64,000 nucleotides of DNA from Chitinophagaceae bacterium (GTDB taxonomy: Bacteria; Bacteroidota; Bacteroidia; Chitinophagales; Chitinophagaceae), in assembly GCA_019638595.1 (NCBI GenBank), contig JAHBTJ010000005.1:62001-126000 (forward strand), in the 5' to 3' direction. Of this stretch, positions 1 through 2,635 are shown piece after piece (positions within the stretch are counted from its first letter, which is position 1; every line of letters begins with the position of its first letter). The notes under the pieces are model-generated. The model saw nothing but the letters and a program-made list of their open reading frames with translations. It was not told where the DNA came from and did not search any database. The translations under genes were made by a program, and so were the position numbers.

Positions 1-215
1 AGGTAATGGCATGGGCCTACGAAAGACCTGATGGCGGAAGAGGTTTTGGCTTTACCGGAGGGCACGTGCATAATAACTGGAAAGTAGACGGTTTCAGAAA
101 GCTGGTGGTCAATGCGATAGCGTGGGTAGCGAAAATAGAAGTTCCCGATACAGGATTTGACACACCAACTCCCACCCGGGAAGAGTTGGATAAGTTATGT
201 AAGAATTCTAAATAA
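1..215 (+). CDS. ThuA-domain protein, C-terminal end (partial)
   Basis: Only the last 70 or so codons are in the window; the gene starts to the left of it. The visible part carries WAYERPDGGRGFGFTGGH followed by a segment ending AWVAKIEVP, which is the usual C-terminal end of ThuA-like (trehalose-utilisation type) domains, a glutamine-amidotransferase-like fold common in sugar-catabolic loci of Bacteroidota and Planctomycetes. The exact reaction of these proteins is not settled. The stop codon at 213-215 lies 4 bp before the duplicated target site of the mobile element that follows, so the gene was probably once close to, and perhaps co-transcribed with, the nitrilase gene. Family call from the recognised motif; substrate unknown. 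Confidence 0.8.
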   Translation, partial: VMAWAYERPDGGRGFGFTGGHVHNNWKVDGFRKLVVNAIAWVAKIEVPDTGFDTPTPTREELDKLCKNSK

Positions 216-219
216 GAAG

Positions 220-227
220 GAGATTCT
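220..227. repeat. Target site duplication, left copy
   Basis: GAGATTCT directly left of the element at 228-523. The identical sequence lies directly right of it at 524-531. Confidence 0.8.
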
Positions 228-523
228 GGGTACATTCCAAATTGTCGCATTGCCATACTTCATGTGGGCGGTGGGGACACCATAGCCGTCAACTTAAGCC
301 CGGAGGGCTTGAATTTGAATAGCCCCCAACAAAGTTGGGGGACAAAAATGTCAAGGTTTTGTTGAACCCCGTAGGGGTTCAATGTAAAAATTGTTGCGAA
401 TATACCACCGGTTGCACCGATGGCTATTCAAATTAAACCCCATTCGGGGTATTTGAGCGCTTAAGCTCTTTAAGTTGACGGCTATGGTGGGGACACCAAC
501 CGGCGACAATTTGGAATGCACCC
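228..523. mobile_element. MITE-like non-autonomous element with terminal inverted repeats
   Basis: A 296-bp element without a plausible gene. Its ends, 228-248 and 503-523, are inverted repeats matching at 20 of 21 positions (outer sequence GGGTACATTCC on the left, GGGTGCATTCC on the right when reversed). Identical 8-bp sequences GAGATTCT flank it at 220-227 and 524-531, as expected from transposition. Inside are further nested inverted repeats: 278-297 with 470-489 (20 bp perfect) and 312-324 with 422-434 (13 bp perfect), plus short hairpins at 297-309, 323-341, 362-382, 437-450 and 455-468. GGG ends and an 8-bp duplication recall IS1595/IS1016-type elements, but that assignment is inference; no transposase is present. 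Confidence 0.85.
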
Positions 524-531
524 GAGATTCT
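524..531. repeat. Target site duplication, right copy
   Basis: GAGATTCT directly right of the element, identical to 220-227. Removing the element and one copy would leave about 50 bp between the ThuA stop codon and the nitrilase start. Confidence 0.8.
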
Positions 532-564
532 TTATAGCTATCACTACGAGTAATGCATAATAAA

Positions 565-1341
565 ATGAAAGAAGTAAAAATAGCAATGGTGCAGATGCTG
601 GTAAAAGGGAATGATATAGCCTCCAACCTTGCCAATGCAGAAAGATGTTTGCAGGAGGCAGCGGCAAATGGTGCTGATATTGCCGTGTTACCGGAATGCA
701 TGGATATTGGCTGGACTCACCCGGGCAGCCGGGAGTTTGCCGGAACCATACCTGGCGGGGAGGTATTTAGCAGGCTAAGTACCGCTGCTGCCAAATGGAA
801 AATATTGGTGTGTTCGGGTCTTACTGAAAGGGATAACGACAAAGTATATAATACTGCCGTACTGATAGACAGCAATGGTGATTTGCTTTTAAAGCATCGT
901 AAGATCAATGAGCTGGATATCGGTAAGCCATATTATGCTACCGGCGACAGGATCAACACTGCGGATACAACATTTGGCCGCCTGGGGGTGATGATCTGCG
1001 CGGATGCGATCGTGGAAGACAGGTCTATTACAACCGCGCTGGCAAGGATGGAACCGGCTATTATCTTATCCCCCTGCGCCTGGGCTGTACCACCGGGCTA
1101 CGATAATAATATCCAGCCTTACGGCGATCTGTGGAGAGATGCCTATATGCCCATTGCGGAAAAATTTGCTACTTACATTATAGGCGTAAGCAATACCGGT
1201 CATATGGAAGCTGGCCCCTGGAAAGGCTGGGACTGTATCGGTGCTTCTATTGCGGTAGACAATACAGGAAAGCAAATGGTACAGTTGCCATTTGGGGTAA
1301 CTGCCCAGGCAATTGTGTATATACATTGCCAGATAAATTAA
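565..1341 (+). CDS. Carbon-nitrogen hydrolase (nitrilase superfamily)
   Basis: A cytosolic amidase/nitrilase-fold enzyme of about 258 residues, the normal size for the superfamily. The catalytic Glu-Lys-Cys triad is visible: E44 in VLPECMDIGW, K113 in KHRKINELD and C145 in GVMICADA (numbering from the ATG at 565). An in-frame ATG at 553 would add four residues; 565 was chosen because it places the first beta strand (VKIAMVQM) directly after the start, as in relatives. No signal peptide. The substrate, some C-N bond such as an amide or N-carbamoyl group, cannot be told from sequence. It lies between the mobile element and the FecR gene on the same strand and may have been co-transcribed with the ThuA gene before the insertion. 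Confidence 0.85.
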   Translation: MKEVKIAMVQMLVKGNDIASNLANAERCLQEAAANGADIAVLPECMDIGWTHPGSREFAGTIPGGEVFSRLSTAAAKWKILVCSGLTERDNDKVYNTAVLIDSNGDLLLKHRKINELDIGKPYYATGDRINTADTTFGRLGVMICADAIVEDRSITTALARMEPAIILSPCAWAVPPGYDNNIQPYGDLWRDAYMPIAEKFATYIIGVSNTGHMEAGPWKGWDCIGASIAVDNTGKQMVQLPFGVTAQAIVYIHCQIN

Positions 1342-1414
1342 GGGATCGGCATAAAGTTACTTTTTGCATGGGAAGTTTTGCAGCCCTGTACGTTTATACC
1401 ATAACAACTTATAC

Positions 1415-2635
1415 ATGGCATATATAGAACGGCAAATCGCGCAGTTGATCTTAAAATATTTTTCGGAGGAATTAAATACACTCGAAGAGGCGGAACTGGA
1501 AAGCTGGTTGGCTGCATCTCCCCGTAACCGCCGTTTTTTTGACGGGCTTAGTGAAGAAGATGATTTCATACGTTTACTGGCACAGGAAGAGCTGGACAGG
1601 GAGAACAAGATAGAGCAAAAAATACTTCAGAAAATACAGGAGAAAATACGAACCTCCGAAAAGGATGATGAGGATGGATTTATACCGGCTAAAATTTCGC
1701 GAATCAGCCGCAGTATATGGATCGCGGCTGCAAGTGTAATAATAGTGCTGGGCATTGGCATATATTTTTGGAGCAGGGCGGATGCGGCAAAACAGGATGG
1801 AAAGCCAACGCTGGTGAAAACCACTAACGATGTTTTACCGGGCAGCGATCGTGCAATACTTACTCTTTCTAACGGGCAGGAGATTGAATTAAATACAAAA
1901 GGCGGGGAAGTAATAATGGATGGAGAATTGCCTATAGCCAATAATGATGGGGAATTGAAGTATTCCGGATCTGGTAAAACGGTATACAATACCATGACCA
2001 CTCCTAACGGGGGACAATACAAAATTACCCTGTCGGATGGCAGCAAAGTATGGCTGAATGCCGCATCTTCTGTTACTTATCCTACTCATTTTGAGGGAAT
2101 GGCAAGAGAAGTAAGCATAACGGGAGAAGCCTATTTTGAAGTAGCGCACGATAAAACAAAACCGTTCATCGTACAAACTCCCGGCGGTTCGCGGGTAGAA
2201 GTACTGGGAACTCATTTTAATGTAAATGCTTATGGTGATGAAGCGTACCAAACAACAACCCTGGTAGAAGGAAAAGTAAGAGTGGCAAAGCTATCTGGAA
2301 CCGTACACCTGAAACCGGGATTCCAGGCAAAAGTAGCGAACGTTCAAGGTACGGATAGCAGTGAAGATATTACTGTTACGGAGGCAGATGTGGAAGAAGC
2401 GACGGGGTGGAAAAATAATTTATTTGTATTCAACAAGGCTGATATTCCTTTTATAATGCGGCAGTTGAGCAGGTGGTACGACCTGGATGTTACGTACAAA
2501 GGTGAAATTCCCAAAAGAAATTTTTTAGGAAAGATCCCAAGAAACATTCCTTTATCGCAAATGCTGAGCGCGTTAAAATTAGTAGGAGTGAATTTTGAAA
2601 TTAAGGATAAGACACTTATTGTATCCGGAACTTAA
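1415..2635 (+). CDS. FecR-family anti-sigma factor
   Basis: Inner-membrane signal transducer of the FecR type, about 406 residues. Order of parts: cytoplasmic N-terminal anti-sigma-like region (1-95, with an acidic helix around LNTLEEAELESWLAAS), one membrane helix (about 101-119, IWIAAASVIIVLGIGIYFW), periplasmic FecR domain (about 180-285, including SVTYPTHFEG and SITGEAYFEVAHD) and a C-terminal DUF4974-like STN-related domain (about 330-400). An upstream in-frame ATG at 1364 adds 17 residues unlike the family, so 1415 was chosen. Such proteins normally sit next to an ECF sigma-factor gene that they control; here the upstream neighbour is a nitrilase and no sigma gene is in the window. Downstream is a SusC with an STN domain, the expected signalling partner. 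Confidence 0.9.
   Translation: MAYIERQIAQLILKYFSEELNTLEEAELESWLAASPRNRRFFDGLSEEDDFIRLLAQEELDRENKIEQKILQKIQEKIRTSEKDDEDGFIPAKISRISRSIWIAAASVIIVLGIGIYFWSRADAAKQDGKPTLVKTTNDVLPGSDRAILTLSNGQEIELNTKGGEVIMDGELPIANNDGELKYSGSGKTVYNTMTTPNGGQYKITLSDGSKVWLNAASSVTYPTHFEGMAREVSITGEAYFEVAHDKTKPFIVQTPGGSRVEVLGTHFNVNAYGDEAYQTTTLVEGKVRVAKLSGTVHLKPGFQAKVANVQGTDSSEDITVTEADVEEATGWKNNLFVFNKADIPFIMRQLSRWYDLDVTYKGEIPKRNFLGKIPRNIPLSQMLSALKLVGVNFEIKDKTLIVSGT

Follow-up and report, generated by a model that had tools for sequence, protein, structure and literature searches.

The window analyzed here is a 64,000-nucleotide stretch (G000:C45:62001-126000) of a Chitinophagaceae genome of 7.06 Mb (G000, hereafter the own genome). 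It begins with the 3′ end of a ThuA-like gene (3–215, plus strand), which enters from outside the window. The 70 residues given of this gene match Pfam ThuA with an E-value of 1e-4 and 23.1 bits, below the curated cut-off of 33.4. The following gene encodes a nitrilase-like carbon–nitrogen hydrolase (565–1341, plus strand; Pfam CN_hydrolase, E = 6.3e-32), whose product shows 90–91% identity to proteins of the Chitinophagaceae MAGs ACE_BAC12 and ACE_BAC13, which are near relatives. The two genes are separated by a 296-bp unit (228–523), which the original prediction, made from the letters of this DNA, described as a MITE-like insertion with nested hairpins and no gene of its own. Its interior contains no complete ORF of at least 60 residues, and the hairpins inside it are real.

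The termini of the unit are also as predicted. The left terminal inverted repeat (TIR), GGGTACATTCCAAATTGTCGC (228–248, plus strand), pairs with the right one (503–523, minus strand) at 20 of 21 positions; the probability of such pairing by chance at a fixed pair is ~1.5e-11. The 8-bp target duplication GAGATTCT is identical at 220–227 and 524–531. These ends are multicopy: with up to 3 mismatches allowed, the left TIR had 38 matches in the own genome, including the two of the unit itself, and the reversed control had 0. Among the 21 TIR pairs spaced 60–1300 bp apart in the listed and fetched own loci (two of the pairs have one right end in common), 14 are flanked by an 8–9-bp duplication with at most one mismatch, and a good duplication is absent in the other 7. 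Regarding the predicted inner inverted repeats of 20 and 13 bp, the 20-bp one is present (278–297 and 470–489, complementary at 20/20 positions), but the 13-bp sequence GGTGGGGACACCA is a direct repeat (270–282 and 486–498), which may be what was meant by the 13-bp inverted repeat. A second inner arm pair (305–324 and 422–441) is 90% complementary.

The unit has two layers. The inner one is a 206-bp MITE with IS231/IS4-type ends and no gene (281–486, plus strand). Its left TIR, CATAGCCGTCAACTTAA (281–297, plus strand), is perfectly complementary to the right TIR (470–486, minus strand), and exact copies of the 10-bp target duplication GTGGGGACAC flank it at 271–280 and 487–496. The outer layer comprises 228–280 and 487–523. 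Inward of the left TIR, its left part (249–280, plus strand) ends in the 5′ half of a hairpin (hairpin A, GTGGGCG-GTGGGGACAC), and its right part (487–523, plus strand) begins in the loop core of another (hairpin B, GTGGGGACAC-CAACCGG).

A search of the own genome with 228–523 yielded 29 matches, a single one of which was full-length; the rest were ends or the middle, and the next-best match covered 51–156 of the query. No full-length 296-bp match was present among the matches listed for 18 relatives (best, 49–279). In both searches, at most 39–40 candidates per genome were scored. Among the matches listed, 10 of the 11 same-genus relatives contained matches to the query, and none of the 7 genomes of other genera did. 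The whole unit was found once among the matches listed, but both of its layers are multicopy. That the unit represents a single MITE family whose body naturally carries nested hairpins, as originally read, is hardly credible. Its outer TIRs, outer duplication, and hairpins are all real, but no further 296-bp copy was among the matches listed for the own genome or the 18 relatives, and the inner element is seen in other contexts with its own 9–10-bp duplications. One sister genome (G007) has the inner element in the same gap without the outer layer, and outer copies free of the inner element exist; both layers are thus found separately. The prediction holds in that this is a transposase-type insertion with an 8-bp duplication and multicopy ends, but not with regard to one MITE having an unusual hairpin-in-hairpin layout. 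The 296-bp stretch is a composite of two gene-less MITEs of unrelated families, the second of which is located in a hairpin of the first.

The inner part was matched in at least 8 of the 11 same-genus relatives, and 7 of these relatives yielded copies in which both ends are present. The set of 39 inner copies used below consists of the 40 fetched loci of relatives, excluding three in which no end pair was found at 5 or fewer mismatches (L072, L089, and L097), and two own loci, L028 (that of the window) and L011. At loci with several end pairs, the pair spanning the element was used. This set does not include L009, L010, and L012 of the own genome or the 13 copies of a second inner family. A duplication of 8–10 bp flanks 25 of the 39 copies (20 exact and 5 with one mismatch), and 14 have none. 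Its length is 10 bp (exact) in the window and 9 bp in many other MITE copies. The second inner family (331–334 bp, ends CATAGGCGTCAACTTAA) also sits in other hairpins (CCCGC-TTT-GCGGG). It was observed on contigs C1, C6, C12, C17, C19, C30, C37, C45, C49, and C51 of the own genome (loci L015, L023, L026, L041, L056–L059, and L064–L067). Duplications are found at only 3 of its 13 copies, and at several the hairpin halves on the two sides differ. Such mixed flanks suggest recombination between copies or assembly joins.

Gene-poor derivatives of IS231, such as MIC231, are known. According to Table 1 of PMC2266710, the IS231 subgroup of the IS4 family has the end signature CAT-------AA--TAA--- and 10–12-bp duplications. 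CATAGCCGTCAACTTAA fits this signature at both inner ends. Thirty PF01609 transposase loci were fetched, and six of them are flanked by a pair of ends related to those of the inner MITE, forming elements of 1539–1558 bp. Four copies of a single G007 element are among the six, and L153 is in the own genome. Their ends, of type CATAGTCGTTAAGCTAAG, differ from the inner ends at 4–5 of 18 letters, and both end types fit the IS231-subgroup signature; no full-length element with exact inner ends was found among the 30 loci. The 10-bp duplication is exact in five of the six elements and matches at 9/10 positions in the sixth. All six contain the YREK motif, Y(2)R(3)E(6)K, and L153 matches NCBIfam IS4 with an E-value of 3.5e-61. 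The inner layer resembles the IS231 subgroup in its end signature, its 10-bp duplication at this locus, and the YREK motif of its full-length relatives, but it is distinguished by its 206-bp geneless form, the often 9-bp duplications, the REP-like body, and a clear preference for hairpin loops.

A full-length relative with a nameable transposase family, which the original prediction had proposed to look for, was found for the outer layer. The two 21-bp ends of this element (L111 in G006, 1275 bp, ISKra4) have one and the same sequence, which is also found at the ends of MITE copies such as L019. They differ from the outer ends of the window at 2 and 3 of 21 letters (3 at the left TIR), and the element is flanked by the 8-bp duplication AGGCAGCA. 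Its transposase is broken. One piece matches NCBIfam ISKra4 (NF033572) with an E-value of 1.8e-40 (6.1e-48 in the 13-genome search), another weakly matches ISLre2 (2.5e-6) and ISKra4 (6.4e-5), and the first ORF shows no transposase match. An ISKra4 remnant in G008 (L189) adjoins an outer-type right end with 2 mismatches. In the 13 genomes, no ISKra4 match exceeded the curated cut-off (the best, 164.3 bits versus 205, contains an internal stop), and we therefore do not call L111 an intact ISKra4 member and term the outer layer ISKra4-type. The own genome has no ISKra4 match at all, and those elsewhere are only broken or partial, so that the transposase of the outer family may no longer exist in this genome. 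Prokaryotic Mutator-like elements including ISKra4 are described in PMC3942029 as producing 8- or 9-bp duplications. The outer layer has an 8-bp duplication, and its 21-bp TIRs fall within the 18–39-bp range and are close to the L111 ends. It is similar to the ISKra4 family (p-MULT 4, Mutator-like DDE) and its MITEs in the 8–9-bp duplications, in ends within the published length range, and in having a full-length relative with an ISKra4-type transposase. It is unlike that family in that it has no gene, its hairpin body varies between copies, and no intact enzyme was found in the own genome.

Outer copies free of the inner element show how the two layers are joined. L019, for example, is 115 bp long and has two hairpins, A (GTGGGCG-GTGGAGACAC-CGCCCAC) and B (CCGGTTG-GTGGGGGCAC-CAACCGG). 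Positions 228–280 of the window align without gaps with bases 1–53 of L019 (44/53 identical), and positions 487–523 align without gaps with its last 37 bases (34/37 identical). The 25 bp of L019 between the two hairpin cores have no counterpart in the window. These cores are near-identical in the outer element, and slippage between them would most simply explain the loss of the 25 bp. A search of 12 genomes, allowing up to 3 mismatches, detected no outer form that lacks both the 25 bp and the inner element (an A/B chimera); the sole match at 3 mismatches is an ordinary hairpin A. The chimeric outer flanks may instead have arisen by recombination between inner copies residing in different hairpins or loci, which we consider a possible but less likely route. 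The second inner family frequently shows mixed flanks (duplications in 3/13 copies, several unlike hairpin halves), and PMC1525189 attributes hybrid flanks to recombination between IS copies. However, the outer 8-bp duplication is intact, so that an exchange between loci would require a later jump or gene conversion, and a single parent of the L019 type that simply lost 25 bp accounts for both halves. Slippage within one outer element is the preferred explanation of the chimeric flanks.

The sequences around the inner copies point to palindromes as targets. Beyond the duplication, at least 5 of 7 complementary pairs were found in 23 of the 39 inner copies, versus 1.3% by chance, and the other 16 are without an extended palindrome. 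Among the 14 outer insertions having a duplication, which served as the control, none had 5 or more of the 7 outer pairs. The window's own inner copy has only 3/7 because its flanks derive from two hairpins. At the junctions, 9/10-mers with three complementary end pairs were found on the left in 23/39 and on the right in 27/39 copies (~3% by chance), and in 0/14 left junctions of the outer insertions. The same outer MITE hairpins recur around many of the 39 inner copies, which may have spread as composites, and the counts given above therefore do not represent independent events. Inner copies in hairpins without recognized outer ends (L071, L095, L107, and L110) favor a palindrome preference, and so do the full-length IS4 elements, whereas L081, L098, L106, and the G007 copy in the ThuA–nitrilase gap have no strong hairpin at the insertion. 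In the full-length IS4 elements, the left duplication reads GTG-N4-CAC in five of the six; that of L149 reads GTGTAAGGAC, a hairpin one base off center as judged by eye. Four of the six have at least 5/7 outer pairs.

Palindrome targeting by the IS4 family has precedent and is not new. In PMC1525189, the IS4-family element ISRm22 is described as inserting at the axis of symmetry of REPs in Sinorhizobium; some of its flanks are hybrid, which is explained there by recombination between IS copies. ISRm22 is similar to the inner MITE in its family, in its targeting of the axis of repeated palindromes, and in the occurrence of some hybrid flanks. It differs in that it is a full IS with 6-bp duplications and its target is a REP, not another MITE.

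The ThuA–nitrilase gene order is retained in two sister genomes, and the same gap holds a different insert in each. In the window, the ThuA-like gene ends at 215 and the nitrilase gene starts at 565 (or 553), and removal of 304 bp would leave ~45 (or 33) bp between them, close to the ~50 bp anticipated for excision of the element with one duplication. It is possible that the element interrupted a former ThuA–nitrilase operon. The sister genome G004, which reads AAGAAAGAGATTTTTATCC at the gap, lacks the element and shows a single GAGATTTT in place of the two GAGATTCT of the window (7/8 letters shared), so the expected empty site was recovered in near-empty form; it is close and not exact, as bases further right diverge between the genomes. 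G004 has another apparent insert in this gap (L163/L180), which is ~190 bp long, lies ~33 bp further on, and has GTATCAT on both flanks. In G007, an inner-type element occupies the gap at a slightly shifted position; it has no outer layer around it and shows the imperfect duplication GCAGGCATAG/GTAGGCATAG, and no palindrome is visible there by eye. The comparison of the window, G004, and G007 at the gap thus reveals three different inserts in three sister genomes.

It had also been suggested that the hairpins of the element could form a structured RNA or a terminator for the ThuA-like gene, and neither role is favored. The folding energy of the inner strand (281–486) is −95.9 kcal/mol, whereas shuffled sequences average −52.9 (z = −10.1), as is expected of a nested palindrome. 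A conserved structured RNA, or an element that stabilizes or attenuates the mRNA between the two genes, is very unlikely, even though the fold score and several pairing measures can be read in its favor. Across 32 of the 39 inner copies, the proportion of paired cells is 92.3%, and the shuffles are exceeded in four of five measures. Cells changed on both sides number 53 versus 20, and the covariation score is 0.101 versus 0.070; for these two measures and for paired cells, 0 of 500 shuffles were as high. Pairs changed on both sides number 13 versus 8.6 expected (7/500 shuffles), and the structure performs better than all six slid versions. However, palindromic mobile DNA folds regardless, and the copies share descent. 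Five of the 13 pairs changed on both sides are in helix 6, where 5 of the 32 copies have one common alternative stem, and four are in the poorly paired helices 7 and 12; of the remaining four, three are in the terminal helix and one is in helix 8. The number of further pair types is not above that of the shuffles (332/500 at least as high), no Rfam match with an E-value up to 1 was obtained in window positions 1–1500, and the gap is not conserved in the two sister genomes. With 0 Rfam matches and much of the covariation coming from one swapped stem, the proposed structured RNA is weakly supported. A terminator for the ThuA-like gene is likewise very unlikely. Strong hairpins are located ~80–235 bp downstream of its stop codon, but the three terminator-like sites found in a scan of 100–700, versus a mean of 0.6 in shuffles, all lie on the minus strand (two of them inside the element), and the plus strand had none.

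The body of the inner MITE contains several hairpins. One REP-like repeat (296–341, plus strand) consists of the hairpin AAGCCC-GGA-GGGCTT, the spacer GAATTTGAATAGCC, and the hairpin CCCCCAAC-AAA-GTTGGGGG. A second one in inverted orientation (422–450, minus strand) consists of ACCCC-GAAT-GGGGT followed by TTAATTTGAATAGCC. Between them, the fold contains the hairpin TTGAACCCC-GTA-GGGGTTCAA (362–382; helix 8, 99.4% of cells paired), and an imperfect hairpin, CCACCGGT-TGC-ACCGATGG (405–423), is indicated by the fold and by pair counting. Seven REP-like loci were picked from the matches to 228–523 in the own genome and relatives. In four of them (L017, L193, L194, and L196), an inverted pair of REP-like repeats surrounds a Y1-transposase ORF, and in L198 a repeat lies on one side of such an ORF; L195 and L197 have REP-like repeats, and no Y1 gene was found at these two loci. 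The Y1_Tnp matches at the REP-like loci have E-values of 5.3e-18 to 1.1e-21. This suggests that the body of the inner MITE consists of two REP-like repeats in inverted orientation, boxed in IS231-type ends. REP doublets (REPINs/BIMEs) with their RAYTs, the subject of PMC3116915 and PMC2817692, likewise are inverted pairs of hairpin repeats, and REP-like repeats of the inner type also flank Y1 transposase genes. Unlike REP doublets, the pair in the inner element is enclosed by IS231-type terminal repeats. REP dimers within long palindromes are known, for example, the GTAG-15 dimers of A. variabilis (PMC3733652), which are close to the inner plan in that a REP pair is embedded in a larger palindrome; the part of that article consulted mentions no insertion-sequence terminal repeats or target duplication for them.

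Here, we propose the following order of events, based on the ends, the duplications, and the relatives of each layer. An ISKra4-type MITE (~115 bp when empty, with two hairpins) would have inserted between the ThuA-like and nitrilase genes, generating the 8-bp duplication. An IS231-type (IS4-family) MITE of 206 bp would then have entered one of the hairpin loops of the outer MITE, duplicating the 10-bp loop core GTGGGGACAC, and the 25 bp between the hairpin cores were probably lost by slippage. The outer MITE may have been moved in trans by an ISKra4-family enzyme and the inner MITE by an IS231-like enzyme of the IS4 family. IS4-type elements appear to favor palindromic loops, often GTG-N3/4-CAC, and each hairpin-rich MITE may therefore serve as a landing pad for the next element. 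We assign a probability of about 0.87 to this reading, in which two MITEs of different DDE families lie one inside the other, with enzymes acting in trans, a 25-bp loss, hairpin landing pads, and a REP-like inner body. Rather speculatively, the inner element could be a hybrid in which a REPIN-like pair was captured between IS231-type ends. Such an element might in principle be moved in single-stranded form by a RAYT and also in double-stranded form by an IS4-family enzyme seeking hairpin loops, and the new hairpins contributed by each layer could drive a self-feeding, nested build-up across the genus.

Both layers are of known kinds; what is new is their stacking and the REP pair boxed in IS231-type ends. 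A bacterial MITE inserted in the hairpin of another MITE was not encountered among the literature titles and abstract openings searched, a search that left most subscription journals outside, and the part of PMC10969869 consulted mentions neither "nested" nor "inserted within". The main interest of the locus is that it provides a clear case of hairpin-targeted nesting. It suggests that stacked intergenic palindromes of bacteria may originate from small elements, the hairpins of which preferentially attract the next insertion. Since one genus contains many insertions as well as uninserted target hairpins, a natural test is available of whether an IS4-family transposase reads the shape or the sequence of a hairpin. 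The locus also calls for caution in two respects: a supposed "MITE with nested hairpins" may in fact comprise two elements, and little about RNA function can be concluded from a high fold score in hairpin-rich mobile DNA.

Two further features of inner-type sequences were observed. On contigs C11, C22, C29, and C37 of G008 (L113, L114, and L116–L118), an intact left inner-type end is followed by other hairpin repeats, with no matching right end at the right distance; these repeats with a left end alone are perhaps one-ended relics. In the hairpins at 323–341 and 362–382 (alignment columns 96–99 and 138–141), the loops occur in both orientations among the copies (AAA/TTT and GTA/TAC) while the stems are unchanged, as if the hairpins had been flipped. 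The target loops likewise differ by side in L082, which has GTGAGACAC on the left and GTGTCTCAC on the right, and in L107.
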